34,304 bases of DNA, from positions 1-34,304 of the forward strand of contig CASFQA010000002.1 in assembly GCA_949296775.1 (NCBI GenBank), written 5' to 3'. The notes beneath the pieces were generated by a model that worked only from the letters and a program-made list of their open reading frames with translations, did not search any database and had not been told where the DNA came from. Below are positions 74-34,304 of the stretch, piece by piece. Within the stretch, counting starts at the first letter, position 1, and each line of letters opens with the position of its first letter. The position numbers were made by a program, and so were the translations under genes. This stretch comes from an uncultured bacterium (GTDB lineage: Bacteria; Bacillota_I; Bacilli_A; RFN20; CAG-826).

Positions 74-200
74 GTGTCTACAAAACGTTTACTAGTGCAG
101 CAGTACGGTGGTAACCGAAAAGCGGACACATCAAAACGCGCAGATTCCAATAGATTCTTTAGCACTGAATATTCGCGCAGAACCCTTATAAGTGCAACAA

Positions 201-221
201 GAAAACCCTGCCGAAGCAGGG
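201..221 (-). terminator. Rho-independent terminator of the ribosomal operon
   Basis: Read on the minus strand this is CCCTGC-TTCG-GCAGGG followed by TTTTC. That is a perfect 6-bp stem closed by the extra-stable C(UUCG)G tetraloop, then a short U tract. It lies 21 nt past the rplQ stop codon, as expected for the end of the long S10-spc-alpha transcript. The + strand side has no T run, so it serves the minus strand only. Confidence 0.85.
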
Positions 222-242
222 TAATCTGAGTAACGGCGATAA

Positions 243-647
243 TTACTTATCGGACCAACGGACGAGGGTAACCTCAGCCGAATCGCCCCGGCGGAGCCCG
301 AGCTTATAGGCCTTGGTGTAGCCGCCGTTGCGGTCTTTCATCCGCGGGCCAATCTCATTGAAGAGCTTGTCGAGGGCGGTTTTCCCGTCCTTATCGACGA
401 CGGTCGGCCGGACGACTTGGGCGGCAAGCCGCCGAGCGTGCAAGTCGCCCCGCTTGGCCCAGGTGACGAGCCGGTCAGCCAAGGATTTGAGTTCCTTGGT
501 GACGCCGCTGGTGACTTTGACTTCCTCGTTGAGGATCAAGTCGGTGACGACGTTGCGGAGCATCGACTTGTTCTTCGAGGCGGTATAGCCGGCTTTGAAG
601 CGGACACCCGCTTTGCCGTGGACGTTTTTTCTTCCTTGTGCAGCCAT
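243..647 (-). CDS. rplQ: 50S ribosomal protein L17
   Basis: A 134-residue protein of the large subunit near the exit tunnel. The L17 core is clear: an SKNKSMLRNVVTDLI stretch near residues 24-38, then EEVKVT, and a C-terminal GGYTKAYKL / RRGDSAEVTLV block. It is about 10-15 residues longer at the N-terminus than many bacterial L17 proteins. It is the last gene of the operon. It starts 2 nt after the rpoA stop, so translation is probably coupled to rpoA, and it is followed by the operon terminator at 201-221. rpoA-rplQ is the standard order in Bacilli. Confidence 0.97.
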   Translation of the reverse strand: MAAQGRKNVHGKAGVRFKAGYTASKNKSMLRNVVTDLILNEEVKVTSGVTKELKSLADRLVTWAKRGDLHARRLAAQVVRPTVVDKDGKTALDKLFNEIGPRMKDRNGGYTKAYKLGLRRGDSAEVTLVRWSDK

Positions 648-20430: not shown

Positions 20431-21811
20431 TCACTCCGGATCGAATGGGGTGAACAAGGCGAACATAGAATAGAAGGGGAAATTTTGACGACCGAGTTTT
20501 TCGTTATATGGTTCAGAAGTGATGATTATGCCTTTCCGAACGGTGTCCATATGCTTGCTTTCCAGAAGATCCAAAGATTTCAAAGCATGGTAACTAGAGG
20601 ATCTGCATTCCACCGGTTGAACCTTTCCATGCCTTTCGAAAGCAAAGTCGACTTCATACGAATAAACGGTCGAGTCTTTGGTTTCGGTCCAAGAAAAGTA
20701 ATGAGGATCAAGACCGGCTAATTTTAATTGCTGAGCCACGGCGTTTTCATATATATAGCCGAAGTGGCCCCTTAAATCGCCATCGATGAACTTATCGTAA
20801 TGCTCATCGATATTTTCGGGGAAATAGCAAAGGCAATGAGCTAATCCCAAATCGTTATAGAAGCCTTTAAAATAAGTGTCGTCCTCGGTTAAAGACAAAC
20901 CAATGTCCGGATTCTTCGCCCTTTTGACAATGTAGCCAATTTGGCTTTCGGCTAATTTGTTAACGGTTTCTAAGGAAGTTGGCGAATTAGGTCGGGAGTT
21001 GATATCGGAAAACTGGAACCGAAAACTATTTCGACCTAGGCATTTAGGGAAGTTCTCATACATCGTCCTACAATGGGTGCCGTATCTGCGGTCAATGGCC
21101 TCTAGGTCTTTGCGAAACAAAGAGAGTATTACCTTTTGGCTCTCAATGACCTCCCAGTAAGAACGAGTTTTAACATAAGCCTCGACCGCTTCCGGCATTC
21201 CCCCAATCAACATATAGGTACGGAACAGACGCATGCAATCATCGTGATTTATAGAAAACAATTGATAATTTTTAGCTTGTGCCGCCGTTTTAATGGAATC
21301 GGCGACGTTCGACATACCTATATTGATCAGGAACTCTTCAAAATCTAAAGGGGCGAAAACAACTTGCCGTTCTTTTGAAGGAAGCAATATATCCAAGGAG
21401 TTCAACTCAATCGATACGGCCGATCCCGTTTCGATAAAAACGATAACGCCCATCATCGGTGAGCTGTTTTATTGCTTGCCGCGCTCAAGAGCAAAATTAA
21501 ATCTCGTCAAATATGATTAAACTCCCGCGCGGGAGAACGGGCTTTTTCAGGGCAAAAAACAAACGATTGTAAAAAGCATCAACGTCGCCCAAATCATCAA
21601 AACAACGTTTAACCCGAACGTCCTCGGCAGAAAAATCAATGAGATAGTAGTTATCAAAAAAGTGTTTTCCAATATACTTTGCCGCGGTTGTCTTGCCGGT
21701 CCGTCTGGGGCCATTAAAAAATAACGCGTTCTGGCTTTCTGACTTCGCCCAGCGTTCTAAATAACTGTAAACTTTTCTAAATAGTGGTTTTTCTAACATA
21801 CCGCAGATCAC
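20431..21811 (-). pseudogene. Decayed AAA-family ATPase with DUF4143 C-terminus
   Basis: The 5' part (21811-21497) encodes the Walker A GPRRTGKTT and Walker B LIIFDE, then stops. In the same frame there follow TAA (21499-21497), TGA (21487-21485), and a coding-looking ARQAIKQLTDDGRYRF. An extra T in a run of five (21436-21440 as A on the + strand) then shifts to the frame of the 3' part (FIETGSAVS.., ending FTPFDPE). The two stops look like CAA to TAA and CGA to TGA changes. The 3' part keeps the DUF4143 core and a degenerate nuclease-like end (EVDFAFERHGKVQPVECRSS, where family members usually have EVKS). Such proteins are accessory, mobile and often toxin-antitoxin-like; their function is poorly known. 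Confidence 0.85.
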
Positions 21812-24319: not shown

Positions 24320-25459
24320 ATGGACGAAGATAAAGCTGAACAACAAAGCAACCGAGGGGCGACCCTCGACGTCTTTCCCCTAAGCAAAGGAAAAAGAATG
24401 CTCTTGTTTTTGGGGGATTTTTTCCTCGTTTTCATTTTGGCGTTGTTTTTATCGAATATCGTCGTCTACCCCATCGCCAAAAGCGCCACCGACTACGACA
24501 CGAAAGAATCGCTTAATGTCGCCAACCAACAAGGACGATATACCATCCTGTACGAAAACCACCTTCTGTTCAATGAGTCCGCCGAAACGAAGAACAGTCT
24601 AGAAGACAACCTCGAGTACACATATTCTCGCTTTCTAAGTTACTACGTCGTCGGCGCCTCAATTGAAAACGAGATATATCACAACTATTATTCCCAATAT
24701 CACAACCAAGACGGGAAATCTTTATTAAAACTATATAAAGCATACGATTTAAGCGAGTTCTTTGATTTTGGGACAATAAATGGCGAAGGTTTGCCGGCTC
24801 TAAAGGAAAAATATCAGGAGGAGTTCGCTCCTAAGTATGAAGAGGGCAACGAAATGAGCGAAACCGGCCAAATAAATTATAACTATCTTTTTGAGCACTT
24901 CTTCTTGTCGATGTATTACACCATGGTCGACGACATCAAATTCAACGATTTGCATCTCCCCAACAACGAGCTTTCCGCTTCCTATAACGACCTGACGGAA
25001 AAAATCGAAGAATTCAACGATTTTTACGATTCAACCGCAATCATTTGCTCATCAATATCTTTTGGCGCGGCCGCCGTTGCCTTATATTTCGTTTACCCGC
25101 TTCTCAATAAACGCGGGCGGACCCCAACTCAATCAGTCATGAAAATCGAACGGGTTGAGAAAGGCACATATAAGATCCTGTCCAGACCGCGCCGCTGCCT
25201 AAGCGGGTTGTATATGAGCATACTGACATTGCCCTGTCTCCTTTTCGTCCCCGTTCCGACGGTTTCGATAAATTACGTCTTCTCCATCACTGGTATGTTT
25301 GGAATTTCCATGGTTGGCTTGATTGGGGTTATCGCCTCGATGCTTATGGTTATTTTCGATAAATTCAATCGTGGTCTGACGGAACTTCTGACATTTTCGA
25401 TCGCTTTGAAGGAAGAAATGTTGGATGAAGTTTATAAGGTGAAAGGCTATTACGTATGA
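24320..25459 (+). CDS. RDD-like membrane protein with a large extracytoplasmic insert
   Basis: A 379-residue protein. A hydrophobic helix lies at about 27-50 (MLLFLGDFFLVFILALFLSN). Then comes a polar region of about 190 residues rich in Tyr, Asn and Glu (about 51-240), presumably outside the membrane, and then three to four further hydrophobic segments (near 241-262, 292-320, 325-345). Between TM2 and TM3 the segment NKRGRTPTQSVMKIERV resembles the GRTPGKxxxGLRVV motif of RDD proteins. RDD proteins are membrane proteins of mostly unknown transport role. The next gene has the same plan, so the two are probably paralogs acting together. It overlaps that gene by 4 nt. Confidence 0.75.
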   Translation: MDEDKAEQQSNRGATLDVFPLSKGKRMLLFLGDFFLVFILALFLSNIVVYPIAKSATDYDTKESLNVANQQGRYTILYENHLLFNESAETKNSLEDNLEYTYSRFLSYYVVGASIENEIYHNYYSQYHNQDGKSLLKLYKAYDLSEFFDFGTINGEGLPALKEKYQEEFAPKYEEGNEMSETGQINYNYLFEHFFLSMYYTMVDDIKFNDLHLPNNELSASYNDLTEKIEEFNDFYDSTAIICSSISFGAAAVALYFVYPLLNKRGRTPTQSVMKIERVEKGTYKILSRPRRCLSGLYMSILTLPCLLFVPVPTVSINYVFSITGMFGISMVGLIGVIASMLMVIFDKFNRGLTELLTFSIALKEEMLDEVYKVKGYYV

Positions 25460-26469
25460 GCGAAGAACAAACCGAAAACCTCTTGCCTGAAATCAAATAT
25501 CGACGCGCTAAATTTTGGCGGCGGATATTTGCCAATCTGCTCGACATAATAATTCTTATTGTTTCAACTTTCCTTCTTTTTGCCGGAGTCAGGGCCCTAG
25601 CCAGTTGCTTTGATTCCGTTTCTTCATCTCAACTCCGGCTAAAGGAAATGCGAGAGGACTCAGGGCTTTACCATCCAAAAGAGGAGGAAAGCAATGAACT
25701 CGTTTCTATTGCCGATTATTTAGAAGATTCGTCCGATTACACTGCGGCCGATAAATATTATTTTGCAGAAGAAACGATTTTCGATTTTGCCGAATATGCT
25801 GGCGTTCAGGTCAGCGATGATTTAAAAAGCGAAATTATCAACGCCTATAATGAATTTCGACTCGAACAGTCATACCTCGGAAAACCCTATTTCATCGTGG
25901 AGAATTCCCAAATCAAGGAAAACGTAGATTGCAAAGCCTCAAAAATCCTTTACTTTCAAAACATCGCTGCTCCATTCCTGAACGATTATTGCGAAGGGTG
26001 CTTAGCTTCAAAATTCCCTGAATACGTAGATTTGACATTGTTCAATTCTCGCTTGTTATTTCTGGTTGAACTTCCGCTATCCTACGCTCTTGCCGGTATC
26101 CTAACTTACCTCGTTCCAACTATCATATTCCGCCGAGGAAGAAAGACATTTGGCAAAGCGTTATACAAAATTGGCCTAGTCGATTCCCGGGTTTTGAACC
26201 CTACCTGGAAACGAAGCCTTGCCCGCTTTGCCATTTTCTACTTCGCAATTCTGCTGTTGTCATTAGTGACGTTCGCCATACCGGTTATCATCTCAGTTAC
26301 CATGATGGGTTTTTCAAAGAAAAAACAAGGTTTTGCGGATTATATGCTTGATTTGCAAGAAATCGACACTGCTGGTTCGACAATTTTCTTTAACATTGAG
26401 GAAGCAGAGGTCAGCAACGTCAATAACTATAAAAAACCGGTGGATTTTCAATCAATTACACGCGAATAA
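25456..26469 (+). CDS. RDD-family membrane protein with an extracytoplasmic insert
   Basis: A 337-residue protein. It opens with RRAKFWRRIFANLLDIIIL, where the R-x-x-A-x-L(L)D pattern is the RDD first-helix signature, and TM1 follows (about 25-47). Residues about 50-200 are polar and probably outside. TM2 is near 203-222, then FRRGRKTFGKALYKIGLVD (RDD motif, near 226-245), then SLARFAIFYFAILLLSLVTFAIPVII (TM3/4). The ATG overlaps the previous stop (ATGA), so the two are coupled. The A+T-richer codon use differs from the sugar transporter genes. The function is unknown; a two-subunit membrane complex is plausible. Confidence 0.8.
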   Translation: MSEEQTENLLPEIKYRRAKFWRRIFANLLDIIILIVSTFLLFAGVRALASCFDSVSSSQLRLKEMREDSGLYHPKEEESNELVSIADYLEDSSDYTAADKYYFAEETIFDFAEYAGVQVSDDLKSEIINAYNEFRLEQSYLGKPYFIVENSQIKENVDCKASKILYFQNIAAPFLNDYCEGCLASKFPEYVDLTLFNSRLLFLVELPLSYALAGILTYLVPTIIFRRGRKTFGKALYKIGLVDSRVLNPTWKRSLARFAIFYFAILLLSLVTFAIPVIISVTMMGFSKKKQGFADYMLDLQEIDTAGSTIFFNIEEAEVSNVNNYKKPVDFQSITRE

Positions 26470-26526: not shown

Positions 26527-26557
26527 AGGTGCATTTGTTTTCGCACCTATGTATAAT
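26527..26557 (+). promoter_or_regulatory. Promoter with an inverted-repeat operator before the 700-residue membrane protein
   Basis: AGGTGC (26527-26532), a 10-nt loop and GCACCT (26543-26548) form a perfect inverted repeat in the -35 region. It is followed by TATAAT at 26552-26557 and ATG 8 nt later (26566). No TTGACA-like -35 is recognisable, so an activator, or a repressor bound to the repeat, probably controls it. There is no SD, so the mRNA may be leaderless. Confidence 0.55.
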
Positions 26558-26565
26558 TAGCGCGT

Positions 26566-28668
26566 ATGGAAAAAACCTTTCGATTCAAAAGGCCGTCCAG
26601 AAAATGGAGGTGGCTTTTATTTTCGGGCATCGCCAGCAGTTTTGCCATTGCTGCTTTCGGGGCGTTGAACTATAAACCAAACCTCGTTGTCGCCGAAGCG
26701 GAAACCACTACCGAAACAACCGAGGACGGCAATGATGCCACGTCCGATTCAAATTCCGGAACCGGACAAACCGGCGCTATGTCCTACATCGAAGGCAAAC
26801 AAATCACTGAGATCGGCGAAGCTAAGCTAGGGGCGGGTTATTCAGAAGAAACCATGACTGACGCGGGAAACAATTTCTACACCACGGTCACGGCCAATAC
26901 CCACACCCCATACATGCAGACCTTCACGATCTCTTTTTCTTCCCAAACAACCACCTATGTCGATACTTTGGGTCAAGTCTTCCTTACTATCGATGATTCT
27001 AATTTCGTAAGCGACACGCCAGTAAGCGACGAAAACGACCCTCTGCCAGAATTCAACGCGCAAGTTTTCCGCATTGAAACCGGCCGGCGCGATAATCCGG
27101 ACATTTATATCCCAGCAAGAGAAACCAAAGCTGGCTTCTTCGTGATGAACGTAACCGGTATTTTTTCCGGCGCGGTAAGCGAGGAATACACTGAGGCGAT
27201 TGAAAACATTTACATCCCCTCGGAAATTGTTACGGCAGCCGAAGGGGCCTTAGATGTCGCTAACCCAAATTGCCAAATTCACTTCGAAGCCGATGCGCTG
27301 CCAGAAGAATTCGATCCCGCCTACACCAATCTTCCTGAGGAGAACATCCACTTTGGGGTAGAACTGCCGTACAACAAAACCAACTACATGGTTCGGAACA
27401 CCAATAAGGAAGGAAACCAGACCGATAATTTTATGATGGGATTCGACGCCGGCGACGAATCGCCATATAAACCCCAATTGCTCAACGTCACGTATGATTT
27501 AGTCAAAGGCGGCACCAGAACCACTTATAATCGGGATTTGCCTTTGAGCTTCGGCACCTATAATTCCTATTATGATGCGATTGGAGAAAGGCTTGGATCC
27601 TACGCCCTAAACCGCACGGTCTCCATTCCGGTTGAGGCGGATGAGGAGATTGATCCGACATCATTGGTTTTCTCTAACATTTACCAAACCGACGCTTTAG
27701 AACGCCCATTCAGGCCAAATACCGACGGGGTTTGCTATTATTCCATTGCCCGGCCAGTCTATAGCAACGAATACGATTCAAATGAGTTCCTCACCATCGA
27801 ATTCGACCACGTCGCCACTTTTGCTGGTTATACCGCCATCTATCTTAAGTCTGAACAATTCCCTGATATCTATAAAATTGTTAACCCAACAATGTATGAA
27901 ACGGCAAAGCGATATCTGGATGAGGATTCAGCCTATATTCGGTTTGCCTTCAATACCGTCAACTCGATGGTTTACAACCTTTCTTACGAGCACAACGGTC
28001 AACTTATAGAGACTCAGTTTACCGCCAGCGCCAAATCCGATTCCTTTGAGATCAACGCTAAACCAATCGGTTTCCTGTTTAAAAACTCCGATATTGGCGA
28101 GGGGTTCTCCGCAGAAAATCTGAAATCGTTTGGCTTTGAAAACTTTGCGGTCCGAGTTGACGTCATGCTCCGCAGCTCAGCCGAAACGCTTGGTCGCACC
28201 GCTTCCACCATCTCCTTTGGACGTTACAATATCCTTGATGATGACCAAGATTTTAACCTAACCAACGTTAACTCCGGCCTCATCTGGACTTTCATTATCT
28301 ACACGATCATCGTCGTCGCTATCGCCATTAGCCTTTATATTTATAAACTCAATCGGTTCAAAAACGACGAGTTCCGGCGCCTAAAGCCGAAGCAATTCAT
28401 CAAAACCGGCATCTTAGCTTACGTATTATTTGGCATAATCACCTTCTTCATTGCCTTCTGTTCGGTCCGCTGGGCCTTCCTGACGAATTCCTTAGTCGTC
28501 TTTAACCCCGCCGACCCGTTCGTAATCGTCTTCGGCATCATTGCCATTATTGCCACCGGTTACTACATCCGCTGGCTCGCGATCGCCATCAAGAATGAAA
28601 AAGAACGCCGTAAGGCCATCAAACTTAAACTCGATTCCGATATCAACGACGATGACGGAACGAAATAA
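26566..28668 (+). CDS. Large membrane-anchored surface protein, function unknown
   Basis: A 700-residue protein. A basic N-terminus (RFKRPSRKWRW) precedes a hydrophobic segment at about 17-37, then a Thr/Glu/Asp/Ser-rich linker (about 44-70). The long outside region (about 70-560) is polar, beta-rich by eye and Tyr/Asn-rich. Three C-terminal membrane helices lie near 565-590, 610-636 and 648-675, followed by a charged cytoplasmic tail. No Cys lipobox is seen, so it is a membrane-spanning rather than a lipid-anchored protein. I recognise no family. It ends 19 nt before the ABC ATPase gene, whose start has an internal SD, so it is probably the first gene of the sugar-importer operon and may bind or present substrate. 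Confidence 0.8.
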   Translation: MEKTFRFKRPSRKWRWLLFSGIASSFAIAAFGALNYKPNLVVAEAETTTETTEDGNDATSDSNSGTGQTGAMSYIEGKQITEIGEAKLGAGYSEETMTDAGNNFYTTVTANTHTPYMQTFTISFSSQTTTYVDTLGQVFLTIDDSNFVSDTPVSDENDPLPEFNAQVFRIETGRRDNPDIYIPARETKAGFFVMNVTGIFSGAVSEEYTEAIENIYIPSEIVTAAEGALDVANPNCQIHFEADALPEEFDPAYTNLPEENIHFGVELPYNKTNYMVRNTNKEGNQTDNFMMGFDAGDESPYKPQLLNVTYDLVKGGTRTTYNRDLPLSFGTYNSYYDAIGERLGSYALNRTVSIPVEADEEIDPTSLVFSNIYQTDALERPFRPNTDGVCYYSIARPVYSNEYDSNEFLTIEFDHVATFAGYTAIYLKSEQFPDIYKIVNPTMYETAKRYLDEDSAYIRFAFNTVNSMVYNLSYEHNGQLIETQFTASAKSDSFEINAKPIGFLFKNSDIGEGFSAENLKSFGFENFAVRVDVMLRSSAETLGRTASTISFGRYNILDDDQDFNLTNVNSGLIWTFIIYTIIVVAIAISLYIYKLNRFKNDEFRRLKPKQFIKTGILAYVLFGIITFFIAFCSVRWAFLTNSLVVFNPADPFVIVFGIIAIIATGYYIRWLAIAIKNEKERRKAIKLKLDSDINDDDGTK

Positions 28669-28687: not shown

Positions 28688-30613
28688 ATGGAAATCAGAA
28701 TCAAGGACCTGACCAAGATCTTCCCGGGAGACGCGAAGAAGAACATCCGTGACACCGTTGCGGTCAAGGATATGAGCTTCGTCGTTCCTGATGGAAAATT
28801 AGTTGGCTTGCTCGGACCTTCGGGATGTGGCAAATCGACCACCCTGTATATGATCTCCGGCTTGCAGAGCCCCACTTCTGGCGAAGTTTGGTTCGGCGAC
28901 CAAGAAGTCACTAACCTCGCTCCGGAAAAGCGCGGCATCGGCTTAGTCTTTCAAAACTACGCCCTTTACCCGCATATGTCGATCTATAAGAACATCGAGT
29001 TCCCGCTTACCAACCTTAAGGTCGAAGTCCCCCTCGTTACGTTCTTCAATTTCCATCTTACCTATACCTATAACCTAAAGAAAAGCGACCTGGTCGAAGG
29101 CATCGCCAAATCGGTCATCGCCCTCGCTAAGCGAATTGGCTTAAAGAAGCGGAACGTCGCCGTCAGCTATGAACAAGCCGATGCTAAGCTAACCCTTCAC
29201 GTCGACTTACTTAACGTCTCTCAAGTCGTGGCCGATCTCTACAAGAAGAATTTCCCGTTGGTCATCGAGAACGCTGAATTAGTCGAGGAGAAATCCGAGC
29301 AGACCAACGAAGCCCTTTACGACGCCTCTTTCCGGGCCACCGTCAACAAGGAAAGCGACTCGGAAATGCTCGACATCCTCTATAAAGGCAACCTCGGCAA
29401 GAAGTTCAACACCGCCACCATCGACGAGACCATCAAGGCCATCAAGGCCATCATCCATAATCACGGCGTCTCCGAAGGGGTTATCATCTCCCGCCTCCAA
29501 AACGGCGAATACGAGCTCATGGCCCGGATCGTCAAGGTCCGTCGCGCCGATTTCGAAGCTACCATCAACGAATTAAACGCTGGCGCCGCCTTCTCCTCTC
29601 ACGTTGTCTCCATCACCAACGTGAGAAACAGCGAGCTGACCATCCAATTCAAGAAACAATTCGCCTTAAAGCGTCTTTCCATCTCCGACTTCAAACTCTA
29701 TTACTCGGAAGGCAAAACCAAGGTTTACTTCCGCCTCCACAAAGTAACCAAAGAGGTCGCCGAGGATTCGAAGGTATTCCTCACTAAGGAATTCGACCTC
29801 TCCGATATCTCGATGGACCTAACCCAGGCCATCGCCCACCGCCGCCTAACCAAAGAGGAACGGCGGGACATCGTCTATGACGCCGCCAAACTCGTCCAGG
29901 TCGATGAGTATTTGCAGCGTAAGCCCAATCAGCTCTCGGGCGGTCAGCAGCAACGGGTCGCCATCGCCCGGGCCCTCGTCAAGAAACCGAAGGTCCTCCT
30001 CCTCGACGAGCCTCTTTCCAACCTCGATGCCCGGCTTCGGCTGCAAACCCGGGAAGAAATCCGCCGCATTCAAAAGGAAACCGGCATCACCACCGTCTTC
30101 GTTACCCATGACCAAGAAGAAGCGATGTCCATCTCCGACGAAATCGTCGTCATGAAGCTCGGCGAGATGCAGCAAATCGATGCCCCGCAGAACGTCTACA
30201 ACAACCCGGCCAACCTCTTCGTCGCCATGTTCCTCGGCACCCCGCCGATCAACGTCTTCAAAGGCCATATCGGCGATGGTCAAGTCAAAGTCGGGGACGA
30301 CGTCGTCTACGAAAACAAAAAATGCAAGGCCCTTAAAGAGGATAAAGACGTTTATGTCGCCATCCGTCCCGAAGGCTTCTCTATGGATAAGCCCAAAGAG
30401 GGTCAAGGTCTCCACTGCAGCGTCGAGATGATTCAAATCCTCGGCCGCGACATCTCGATCGTCGCCAATAACTCTGCCTGCACCAAACCGACCTTCAAGG
30501 TCATCATCTCGGCCGAAGACCAAACCAACGACACCAAGCTTTGCTTAACCGTCAAGCCGAATAAGATGTTTATCTTCGACGGCGAAACCGAACAAAGGAT
30601 CTATCTAGACTAA
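28688..30613 (+). CDS. Carbohydrate ABC importer ATPase (MalK/UgpC/MsmK type) with a ~275-residue insertion
   Basis: 641 residues; ordinary MalK-type proteins are about 370. Nucleotide-binding elements are complete: Walker [10 protein letters not shown] (43-51), Q-loop [16 protein letters not shown] (Q89), signature [15 protein letters not shown] (416-430), Walker B VLLLDEP (436-442), D-loop SNLDARL and H-loop TVFVTHD (H474). The C-terminal part (about 515-641) is the OB-type regulatory domain (IRPEGFSM). Residues about 108-385 are inserted in the helical subdomain between Q-loop and signature; they include [15 protein letters not shown].. and repeated beta/helix patterns. A comparable insertion is known to me in Mollicutes MsmK homologues. 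SD AGGAG precedes ATG. Confidence 0.93.
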
Positions 30614-30624
30614 GAGGTACCCCC

Positions 30625-31650
30625 ATGGCAGAAGCAATGGTCAAAGAAAAACCAAGCCTCGGGTACCACGAGGAGAAGACGGATACCGTCATTCGCCTCG
30701 TCTCCACCCGGAAGCGGAAAAAGGAATACCAAGTCACCGGTATTCAAGACATCGCCAGCGAGAACAACTGGAAAGCCTGGCTTTACCTTGCCCCAGTCAT
30801 CGTCCTGATCGCCGTCTTCCTTTTCTACCCCCTTATCAACACCATTTTCATCGCCTTCACCGAGAATTACCGTTACTCCCAAGGGACATACGATGGCTTC
30901 ACTTTGAATAACTTCGGTATCATCCTGGGCCTCACGTCAACGGATATCGGAGCGACTGAAGTCAACTTCTCCCGTTACGCCATCCCGAACACCTTCATCA
31001 TCGTCTTCATGACGGTTCCGGTCTCGACTTTATTGGCCTTGATCATCGCGGTCGCCTTAAACTCGATTAAATGGTTCCAAAAGTTCTTGCAGACCGTCTT
31101 CTTCTTGCCCTACGTCACCAACGGCATCGCCATCGGCATGGTTTTCGCCGTCATCTTTGATCAACAAGGCATTGTTAACTATATCTTCGGATCTTCTACC
31201 CAGTGGATATACGGGGCCGATCGTTGGACGGCTATGGTTCCGCTATGTATTTACATCGTTTGGAACTCCATCCCATTTAAGATCTTGGTCTTGCTCTCGG
31301 GCTTACAAGGCATCGACAAGCAATATTATCAAGCGGCCCAAATCGACGCGGCCGGCCACGCCAAGACGCTATGGAAAATCACCGTGCCTTTGCTGTCGCC
31401 GCAAATCCTATATCTACTCGTCACTTCCTTCATTGGCGCTTTCAAGGAATATACTTCCATCGTCGCTATCTTTAATGGCCCCGGCACCACTCAAGGCTCT
31501 TACAATATGATGACCATTGTCTATTACATTTATGAGAACCTCAGTATCAACACCTCTTATGCAGCGGCCGCGGCGGTCTTCCTGTTCGTCATCATCTTGA
31601 TCTTCACGTTCTTGCAGTTCGCCGTCGGCAAGACGAGGGTCCATTACTAA
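30625..31650 (+). CDS. Carbohydrate ABC importer permease, MalF/UgpA type
   Basis: A 341-residue inner membrane protein with about six helices. The first is near 52-74 (AWLYLAPVIVLIAVFLFYPLINTIFIAFTENY). The EAA loop that docks the ATPase is YYQAAQIDAAGHAKTLWKITVPLLSP, near residues 234-259. A polar N-terminus of about 45 residues precedes TM1. It starts 11 nt after the ATPase gene with an AAGAGG SD. It forms a heterodimer with the next gene's product. Confidence 0.95.
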   Translation: MAEAMVKEKPSLGYHEEKTDTVIRLVSTRKRKKEYQVTGIQDIASENNWKAWLYLAPVIVLIAVFLFYPLINTIFIAFTENYRYSQGTYDGFTLNNFGIILGLTSTDIGATEVNFSRYAIPNTFIIVFMTVPVSTLLALIIAVALNSIKWFQKFLQTVFFLPYVTNGIAIGMVFAVIFDQQGIVNYIFGSSTQWIYGADRWTAMVPLCIYIVWNSIPFKILVLLSGLQGIDKQYYQAAQIDAAGHAKTLWKITVPLLSPQILYLLVTSFIGAFKEYTSIVAIFNGPGTTQGSYNMMTIVYYIYENLSINTSYAAAAAVFLFVIILIFTFLQFAVGKTRVHY

Positions 31651-31662
31651 GGAGGGGAGAAA

Positions 31663-32649
31663 ATGGAAAACGTTTTCAAAAAATTCCTTAAAAAAGAAGA
31701 AAAGCCTGCCTTAGTTGAGAAGCCGAAGATTGTCCTCTCAATCGAAGACGCCGGCAAAACCGTCGATGCCATCAAACGCAGCCAAAAGATTGGCCACATC
31801 GTGATGATGGTTATCACCTACATCTTCATCCTTTTCTTGGCTTTGATGATGGTCTTCCCCTTCTACTGGATGATCATCACCTCCCTCAAGCAACGGACCG
31901 AAATCATCGCCACCACCCAAACATTCTTCCCGTCGGTCGTCATGTGGAGCAACTACGTGTACGTCTTCCAAGTCTTTGACTTCGGAACCTACATGCTCAA
32001 CACCATCGTCGTTGCCATTTTCTCAACAATCGGCACTTTACTGACTACCATTTTTGCCGCCTTCGCTTTCGCCCGACTCAAATTCAAAGGAAGAGAGCCG
32101 TTGTTCATGCTCTTCTTAATGACCATGATGATTCCGGGCGAAATGATGGTCATCTCCAACTTCGTCACCGTCGCCTCATTCGGCTGGATCGGCACCGGCC
32201 AAACCTTGATGGATGCCTATGCCGCGATGATCGTTCCATTCTGGATCTCAGTCTTCTATATTTACTTGTTGCGGCAGAACTTTAAGCAAATTCCAAACGA
32301 GCTTTACCTAGCCGCGAAAGTCGACGGCAAGTCCGATTGGTCCTTCCTTTGGAAAGTCATGGTTCCGTTGGCTGCCCCGACCCTCATTTCCATCACCATC
32401 CTCAAATTCATGGGCACTTGGAACTCCTACGTTTGGCCGGAACTCGTCACCTCGGTCGACGAATACAAACTCATCTCCAACGGTCTACGCGGAGGGCACT
32501 TCGTCGACAACAGCTCGGGCGCCTCTATTACCGAATACGGGTATCAGATGGCCGCGACCGTCTTAGTCACCGTCCCGCTCTTCTTGCTCTTCGTCTTCTT
32601 CCGTAAATACATCATGCGTGGCGTTGGCCGCGCCGGCATCAAGGGTTAG
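31663..32649 (+). CDS. Carbohydrate ABC importer permease, MalG/UgpE type
   Basis: A 328-residue inner membrane protein with about six helices: TM1 near 45-70, later GEMMVISNFVTVASFGWIGT and PFWISVFYIYLLRQNFKQIP. The EAA loop is LYLAAKVDGKSDWSFLWKVMVPLAAP, near residues 214-239. A 40-residue charged N-terminus precedes TM1. A strong AAGGAGGGG SD lies 12 nt after the previous stop. It is followed by a hairpin spacer and the binding protein. Confidence 0.95.
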   Translation: MENVFKKFLKKEEKPALVEKPKIVLSIEDAGKTVDAIKRSQKIGHIVMMVITYIFILFLALMMVFPFYWMIITSLKQRTEIIATTQTFFPSVVMWSNYVYVFQVFDFGTYMLNTIVVAIFSTIGTLLTTIFAAFAFARLKFKGREPLFMLFLMTMMIPGEMMVISNFVTVASFGWIGTGQTLMDAYAAMIVPFWISVFYIYLLRQNFKQIPNELYLAAKVDGKSDWSFLWKVMVPLAAPTLISITILKFMGTWNSYVWPELVTSVDEYKLISNGLRGGHFVDNSSGASITEYGYQMAATVLVTVPLFLLFVFFRKYIMRGVGRAGIKG

Positions 32650-32741: not shown

Positions 32742-34304
32742 ATGAACCAAAGTCGTAAAGCGAAACTGATTCCGCTTCTGGCGGCAGTTACGTTATTAGC
32801 CGCTTGTAACAGGACAACCTCAAGCAGCTCTTCAACCCCCGATCCCACCGGATCCGAAACCCCGTCCGAATCCAACACCGACAAGAGCACCAATACCGAT
32901 ACTGGTTCTGGGGCCGGCGAGTACAAGCCCTACTTCGGCGAAGAATACAATAGCAACAAAATCACGATCAATGTCTGGACTACCGCTGGTGATCAACAGC
33001 AGACTCAGCTGAACAATTTCGTCACTAAGTTTAAGGAAGTCGAGCCGAACGTCATCGTCAACAACGTCAAACAGTCTGGCTCCTATGATGATTTAAAAGA
33101 AAAGATCATCACCGGTTTCGCCGGCAACGACTATCCCGACCTCACCTACTGCTACCCCGACCACGTCGCCGAATACATCTACTCTTTCAAAGCTGTGGAT
33201 TTGACCGAGTATATCGACGACCCCTATTACGGGTGGACCGCCGAGGACAAAAACGACATCATCCCGGCTTTCCTTGAGGAAGGATCAAAGTATTCGACCC
33301 CAGGCATCTACTCAGTCCCGATGTCCAAATCGACCGAAGCGATGTATTACAACCCGGTCCTGGTCGGTTTAGACGTCTCCAGCGTTAACGCCACCTTGAA
33401 TGGCAACGGCGTCATCACTGAATCTTACCTCAACAGCCTGACTTGGGACGAACTCCTCGACAATTTGGCCCCGACCCTTAAGCAATACGCTAAGAACCAA
33501 ATGGATGCCGGCGAAACCCCAATCTGGGACAGCTCTGACACGTATTCCGCCATCGTCGGCTATGACTCCGACGACAACCTATTCATCACCTTGGCCGAAC
33601 AGTATGGCTATGGCTATACCGCCATCGACGAGACCACCGGCAAAGGCAAGGTCCTCTTCGACAACCAAGGCATGAAGGATTTAATGAAGAAGCTCAACGA
33701 AGCCTATCAAGACAAACTCTTCATCACCAAAGGGGCGGCCAACAACGAATACATCAATACCCGCTTCACCAAAAAGCAAGTCCTCTTCTCCATCGGCTCG
33801 ACTGGTGGCGTCAACTACCAGTTCGACGACGAAGCCCCGATGGACGTCCGGGTCGCTCCGGTCCCGCAGGCCGCCAACGGCGCCAAAAAGGCCCTTATGA
33901 GCCAAGGTCCCTCAATGTGCGTCTTATCCCACAATAAGGCCGACGGCACCATCGACAAAGATCGGATCATGGCCACCTGGCTGTTCTATCGCTTTATGGC
34001 CACCACTGAGAACTCCGCTCAATGGGCTCTTCTCTCCACTGGTTACATGCCGATTCGCGAATCCTCTTACACCACTTCCCAATTCATGAACATCACCAAC
34101 CTCGAGGGCAAGGAAGAGGCCACCATCGACATCCTCACTGCTCGGAACCTAATCTATTGCTCTGACCCCGATACCACCGATATGATGTTTACCTCCCCGG
34201 TCTTCGTCGGCTCCTCGGCTTGCCGTTCGGCCGCCGGTGGCATCGTCACCCAAAGTTTGGTCGCCGGCAGCAGCCTAACCGACGATTCCCTCAACAAAAT
34301 CTTC
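32742..34304 (+). CDS. Extracellular sugar-binding lipoprotein of the ABC importer (partial, runs off the window)
   Basis: 521 codons are open from ATG at 32742 (SD AAGGAGG) to the end; the stop lies outside. Residues 1-22 are a lipoprotein signal with lipobox L19-A20-A21-C22 (LLAAC). A Ser/Thr/Asp-rich linker follows (about 24-60), then the solute-binding fold: ITINVWTTAGDQQQ, FVTKFKEVEPNVIVN, FAGNDYPDLTYCYPDHVAEYIY and SVPMSKSTEAMYYNP, the latter typical of the hinge strand of the SBP_bac_1 family. It captures substrate outside the membrane for the permeases. The ligand cannot be read from sequence. The protein is longer than the usual 400-450 residues. Confidence 0.93.
   Translation, partial: MNQSRKAKLIPLLAAVTLLAACNRTTSSSSSTPDPTGSETPSESNTDKSTNTDTGSGAGEYKPYFGEEYNSNKITINVWTTAGDQQQTQLNNFVTKFKEVEPNVIVNNVKQSGSYDDLKEKIITGFAGNDYPDLTYCYPDHVAEYIYSFKAVDLTEYIDDPYYGWTAEDKNDIIPAFLEEGSKYSTPGIYSVPMSKSTEAMYYNPVLVGLDVSSVNATLNGNGVITESYLNSLTWDELLDNLAPTLKQYAKNQMDAGETPIWDSSDTYSAIVGYDSDDNLFITLAEQYGYGYTAIDETTGKGKVLFDNQGMKDLMKKLNEAYQDKLFITKGAANNEYINTRFTKKQVLFSIGSTGGVNYQFDDEAPMDVRVAPVPQAANGAKKALMSQGPSMCVLSHNKADGTIDKDRIMATWLFYRFMATTENSAQWALLSTGYMPIRESSYTTSQFMNITNLEGKEEATIDILTARNLIYCSDPDTTDMMFTSPVFVGSSACRSAAGGIVTQSLVAGSSLTDDSLNKIF

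Follow-up and report, generated by a model that had tools for sequence, protein, structure and literature searches.

In this study, we identified a 700-aa protein, named X700 here (product of the ORF at 26566-28668), that is very probably a dedicated part of an ABC importer whose ATPase carries an insert of approximately 270 residues. To the fuller reading, in which X700 serves an ABC importer for nucleic-acid breakdown products as a dedicated accessory membrane subunit, we give about even weight for and against. The gene lies in the window, the whole 34,304-nt stretch of DNA that was analysed. The insert-bearing ATPase gene was found directly 3' of X700 in all 63 genomes compared (the window's own genome, 21 fetched relatives, 14 genomes found via the insert and 27 more from the order) as well as in all 58 named loci from a GTDB scan, whose genomes partly overlap the 63; no X700 homologue without an ABC importer was thus found in either set. 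Starting from the insert, X700 was located directly upstream in 14 of 14 further genomes. One draw of 395 genomes of the class contained X700 in 16 genomes (E <= 7.8e-56) and the insert in the same 16 (E <= 2.3e-14), the other X700-profile matches listed for this draw being LRR-only (E >= 1e-12). Among the matches listed for a draw from the order, a true X700 was present in 57 of 196 genomes (E below 1e-50). The sequence-only reading had proposed an undescribed accessory part of the importer, and this strict gene linkage bears the proposal out; open-licence papers yielded no description of X700 or of the ATPase insert.

X700 was absent from 15 control loci (best E 0.006), chosen as those with the closest other permeases. 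Their ATPases, of 354-597 aa, carry at the same site either nothing or inserts of ~25 to ~240 aa, and only the ~270-aa insert form accompanies X700. The sequence-only reading had asked whether X700 always precedes MsmK-type genes: it precedes only the insert-bearing ATPase, and these 15 insert-less or differently inserted loci lack it. The short gap described from the sequence was confirmed, with the ATPase ORF starting at 28688, 19 nt after X700, and an AGGAG Shine-Dalgarno sequence in between. In 57 of the 58 named loci, 10-36 nt separate the X700 stop from the ATPase start, and the overall range is 4-36 nt apart from one outlier, L089 (1128 nt), whose ATPase ORF is split. A scan of the window detected no terminator-like site between the two genes. 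There is thus no sign of separate transcription, which would have spoken against the proposal, and the two genes are probably co-transcribed.

Table 1. Features of the X700 locus (window coordinates unless a locus is named)
Feature	Position	Strand	Basis
RDD-type membrane proteins (two), frequent upstream neighbours	24320..26469	+	family scan, loci
TATAAT -10 element	26552..26557	+	perfect, 8 nt 5' of X700 ATG
X700, 700-aa accessory membrane protein	26566..28668	+	ORF call, homologues, model
Signal-peptide-like segment, residues 1-45	26566..26700	+	hydrophobicity, alignment; cleavage inferred
Ig-like domain 1, first part, residues 100-126	26863..26943	+	model and structure comparison
BspA-type LRR inserted in Ig-like domain 1, residues 127-277	26944..27396	+	profile and structure comparison
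Ig-like domain 1, rest, residues 278-402	27397..27771	+	model and structure comparison
Ig-like/beta domain 2, residues 403-566	27772..28263	+	model and structure comparison
Membrane helix 1, residues 568-597	28267..28356	+	model and hydrophobicity
Cytosolic loop FKNDEFRRLKPK, residues 598-609, most conserved part	28357..28392	+	alignment, charge
Membrane helix 2, residues 610-637	28393..28476	+	model and hydrophobicity
Outer loop, residues 638-649; N647 and P648 invariant, then D650	28477..28512	+	alignment
Membrane helix 3, residues 650-672	28513..28581	+	model and hydrophobicity
Cytosolic tail, residues 673-700; D697-G698-T699 invariant	28582..28665	+	alignment
ABC ATPase (UgpC/MalK-like), 641 aa	28688..30613	+	ORF call, family scans
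ATPase insert, ~270 residues (111-383), tandem ferredoxin-like units	29018..29836	+	alignment, fold
Permease A (BPD_transp_1)	30625..31650	+	family scans
Permease B (BPD_transp_1)	31663..32649	+	family scans
Binding lipoprotein 1, continues past window	32742..34304	+	ORF call, family scan
Binding lipoprotein 2	L188:1791-3377 (own genome, past window edge)		SBP_bac_8 E 2e-15
SNase lipoprotein, 647 aa	L188:3355-5298 (own genome, past window edge)		PF00565 E 5e-7, above cut-off

The X700 ORF starts with ATG on the plus strand, and stop-free matches were found in 22 of the 61 related genomes, one of them the window's own; it is not a chance ORF. Within the genus, only 18 of 31 genomes contained a match, which counts against our main reading. 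The named relatives are metagenome-assembled Bacilli, many of them with a rumen label, and one is Candidatus Alloenteromonas pullistercoris. The three nearest (L044-L046) also have a perfect TATAAT 8 nt 5' of the X700 ATG; several others carry TATAAT at 8-11 nt, and in many of the more distant relatives a GGAGG site takes its place. In the window, there is no Shine-Dalgarno sequence between TATAAT and ATG, and a leaderless start of the X700 message is likely in its own lineage. The placement of TATAAT also suggests that X700 is the head of the operon. The standard sigma-70 scan skipped this element because no -35 passes. Directly 5' of the -10, an inverted repeat, AGGTGC...GCACCT (26527-26548), may function as an operator or form a terminator-like hairpin on the minus strand. 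TACAAT is located at a similar distance 5' of the RDD gene at 24320. An Rfam search gave no match.

X700 had been described as having one helix at the N-terminus and three at the C-terminus, and both hydrophobicity, which peaks at residues 16-34, 572-590, 616-634 and 644-671, and the AlphaFold model, with C-terminal helices at 568-597, 608-637 and 650-686, agree with this. The best model, built from 47 sequences, is only fair (pLDDT 79, pTM 0.62); it begins disordered, continues with a beta-rich region (100-566) and ends in the three helices. The alignment used for X700 (A4) comprised the 58 named loci minus 8 near duplicates and 4 excluded for length (L089, L090, L095 and L100), i.e. 46 sequences plus the window; in alignment A5, one of the 58 loci (L097) was left out for short coverage. 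Forty-three of the 47 aligned homologues have one N-terminal and three C-terminal hydrophobic segments with none in between. The N-terminus, with seven K/R among its first 16 residues, a hydrophobic core and AEA at 43-45, looks more like a cleavable signal peptide than an anchor, and the mature outside region would be approximately residues 46-567. This corrects the earlier description, in which the N-terminal helix and the three C-terminal ones frame an outside region of roughly 490 residues. No lipobox is visible by eye in the window protein, as had been noted; lipobox-like N-termini occur in three X700 homologues from Coprobacillus-labelled MAGs (L063, L068 and L072). Positive residues are present in loop 598-609 and in the tail and absent from 638-649, so loop and tail are placed inside the cell. 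Both are much better conserved than the ectodomain: mean conservation is 0.80 in the loop (NDEFRR) and 0.59 in the tail (DDGT), against 0.33-0.47 in the ectodomain domains. Likewise, the window protein and that of L046 share 85% identity in the loop, 96% in the tail and 30-40% in the ectodomain domains.

The ectodomain contains a BspA-type LRR. Residues 128-266 align with solved structures 4oju (Z 10.1, rmsd 3.3, 115 aligned) and PcpA 4cp6 (Z 8.6, 120 aligned), and the X700 sequence profile matches the BspA-type LRR of 4gt6 (E 3.2e-10), Pfam LRR_5 being found at E <= 0.1 in only 3 of 22 members. The repeats split an Ig/FN3-like domain (parts 102..397), for which a Z of about 5 denotes only a common arrangement; the second beta domain, ~404-565, is likewise weakly matched to solved structures (Z 4.6-6.3). 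Seven of the 47 members lack the LRR region, so it is an add-on, not the constant part of X700. Pfam and NCBIfam matches to MnhB, DUF2339 and Tetraspanin, all sub-threshold, were dismissed, as were, the LRR excepted, whole-model Foldseek matches to Vps26, arrestin and complement (TM-scores 0.06-0.13).

The ATPase core contains Walker A, Q-loop, LSGGQ, Walker B and H-loop, and LSGGQQQ, LLLDEP and H474 are invariant in 22 of 22 aligned ATPases. In all 22, the insert sits after the Q-loop and measures 271-275 aa. Since related ATPases have at this site nothing, inserts of ~25, ~75, ~120 or ~180-240 aa, the 270-aa ferredoxin-like form or lysine-rich mycoplasma inserts, it is an insertion hot spot. 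Folded alone from 58 sequences, the insert was modelled with pLDDT 94.7 and pTM 0.73 as repeated beta-alpha-beta-beta-alpha-beta units, which resemble EF1B 9a9s (Z 10.6), ribosomal S6 (Z 10.6), acylphosphatase (Z 8.9) and ACT proteins (up to 9.3); the ferredoxin-like fold is too common to indicate a function for the insert. The listed structure matches include no MetN or other importer domain, which tells nothing either way, and a profile search of the PDB found no close sequence relative. Insert residues ~112-203 weakly match the Nucleoid occlusion protein Noc (7ol9, E 0.025), and in 8 of 395 genomes the insert profile also weakly matches ORFs of 277-325 aa (E 4e-5 to 1e-3); we treat both as chance or a remote fold echo.

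Downstream of the ATPase, the two permeases match PF00528 (E 5e-21 and 9e-18) and the binding lipoprotein in the window has an LAAC lipobox by eye. The SNase lipoprotein gene occurs at the same place in 42 of the 58 named loci. Of the 16 loci without it, L091 was measured from another permease, and the others stop short of the gene or no more than a few hundred bases beyond binding protein 2, too near to tell. A DGDT...DTPE catalytic-type motif was found in 41 of the 41 SNase proteins examined, 24 by pattern and 17 by reading the sequences. Among loci that lack X700, 8 of the 15 controls as well as L229 and L230 also have the SNase next to the importer, so the nuclease-importer core is older than X700. 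A relative of the second RDD protein lies upstream of X700 in 34 of the 42 loci with room for it; several importers that lack X700 likewise have RDD genes in front of them. Two genes follow on the 3' side of the SNase gene (L188:5301-8722), one for a zinc-ribbon-like membrane protein of 157 aa, the other for a lipoprotein of 983 aa that contains an InlB-type repeat. Further upstream in the window, on the minus strand, an ATPase-like gene (20431-21811) is split into two ORFs of 104 and 341 aa; L023 has one 455-aa ORF in its place, the window gene being broken.

The following mechanism can be proposed. The SNase lipoprotein would cut extracellular DNA or RNA, and the binding lipoproteins, together with the X700 ectodomain, would hold the fragments, or the ectodomain would hold the lipoproteins themselves, near the permeases. 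The three X700 helices may pack beside the permeases, and the NDEFRR loop and DDGT tail may touch the ATPase insert. As the insert would be placed close to the permease coupling helices, on the helical subdomain of the ATPase, contact with X700 could tie ATP hydrolysis to substrate bound outside. The contact between X700 and the insert is a tentative part of this proposal. A mirror-tree test on 40 of the 58 loci, with ATPase-core and permease signal removed, gave residual correlations for the X700 ectodomain of 0.37 with binding protein 2, 0.29 with binding protein 1 and 0.23 with the insert, and for the membrane part of 0.14 with the insert (p 0.036) and 0.29 and 0.33 with the binding proteins. 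This pattern favours some outside partnership of X700 and lends little weight to the contact with the insert, bearing in mind that surface proteins evolve fast, a confounder of this test.

Regarding the substrate, the operon had been read as a sugar importer, and the family scans assign the ATPase, permeases and binding proteins to carbohydrate-type families. On that basis, with a UgpC/MalK-like ATPase, CUT1-like permeases and SBP_bac_8 in binding protein 2, X700 could be a sugar-importer accessory whose LRR/Ig ectodomain binds polysaccharide and passes oligosaccharides to the binding proteins. We consider this unlikely, as the gene run includes a thermonuclease-type lipoprotein in 42 of 58 loci and none of the eight operon proteins scanned matched a glycoside-hydrolase family. 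The sugar assignment also finds no support in the likeness of the operon to the mycoplasma MslA/P81-nuclease operon, and we lean slightly towards nucleic acid as the substrate. The purH and pyrB families had no match in the own genome (96% complete); among 61 genomes, purH was matched in one and pyrB exceeded the cut-off in two. Their absence fits a need for nucleotide salvage, but purH is missing from nearly all relatives, with or without X700, and the auxotrophy is thus not specific to X700 carriers.

Two other readings concern the role of X700 itself. It might be a sensor or regulator that handles no substrate, its ectodomain sensing the substrate and its cytosolic face switching the ATPase via the ferredoxin/ACT-like insert. 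The resemblance of the insert to ACT-type and other ferredoxin-like regulatory folds and the concentration of conservation in the cytosolic loop and tail speak for such a role; that fold is very common and shows no function, however, and the residual correlation of X700 is stronger for the binding proteins than for the insert, which makes this reading rather unlikely. Alternatively, X700 could be a surface anchor or adhesin whose production keeps pace with that of the importer but which is not physically involved in transport. BspA-type LRR domains do occur in cell-surface proteins (4gt6, PcpA), and the ectodomain is the fastest-evolving part of X700. For an adhesin, neither one-to-one linkage with one ATPase form nor conservation centred on cytosolic parts would be expected, the LRR is dispensable, and we regard this role as very improbable. 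The preferred reading, an accessory membrane subunit of the importer, has a more far-reaching version that we find somewhat doubtful: a new class of ABC importer, a nuclease-coupled scavenger of nucleic acid in which a dedicated three-helix Ig/LRR membrane subunit would sense the state outside and drive or gate the motor via the ferredoxin-like insert, itself built for this purpose, the pair having been gained as one module.

Importers of the CUT1 kind are thought to need only a binding protein, two permeases and an ATPase. The system described here shares the ATPase core, permeases and binding-protein type of CUT1/UgpC-MalK sugar importers and differs from them in the 270-residue insert, the obligate X700 and the SNase lipoprotein. 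A strictly linked membrane subunit together with an insert in the motor suggests an added layer of control or capture. If the substrate is nucleic acid, this would also be a route to nucleotides for small bacteria of gut and rumen in which purH and pyrB find no match, one that parallels the mycoplasma system yet is independent of it.

That system, the MslA/P81-nuclease operon (MBOVPG45_0307-0311 in M. bovis, with MG187 and MG189 orthologues), is the closest in content. The M. bovis operon is described as a putative nucleotide transporter and the M. gallisepticum MslA homologue as binding DNA (PMC4045577; a 2025 review, PMC12115388). In both operons, a single run of genes encodes two permeases, a long ATPase, a binding lipoprotein and a nuclease lipoprotein, in a different order. 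Of seven mycoplasma-like loci, six contained genes for a binding protein, a long ATPase and two permeases, along with a small ORF of lipoprotein size that in one locus is SNase-like by BLAST; none of the six contained X700. The mycoplasma ATPases, of 614-738 aa in six loci, carry their insert between Q-loop and signature, at the same site as ours; theirs is lysine/glutamate-rich and coiled-coil-like by eye, whereas ours is ferredoxin-like, and homology between the two was dismissed (hhalign probability 0.1, 14 columns). Our binding proteins match lipo_P68 at E 5.9e-12, but with 44.8 bits they score well under its cut-off of 200, and PF03305 'MG185/MG260' touches binding protein 2 below cut-off (E 0.008).

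With BspA-type LRR surface proteins (4gt6, 4oju and PcpA 4cp6), X700 shares the LRR fold over ~110-140 ectodomain residues; unlike in those proteins, the LRR of X700 is dispensable and interrupts an Ig-like domain of a membrane protein with three helices. In MetNI importers, the ATPase bears a ferredoxin-like regulatory domain (C2) at its C-terminus, and an extra membrane subunit is not known. Our system resembles them in having a ferredoxin-like domain added to the ATPase, but it is located inside the helical subdomain, while that of MetNI is C-terminal.
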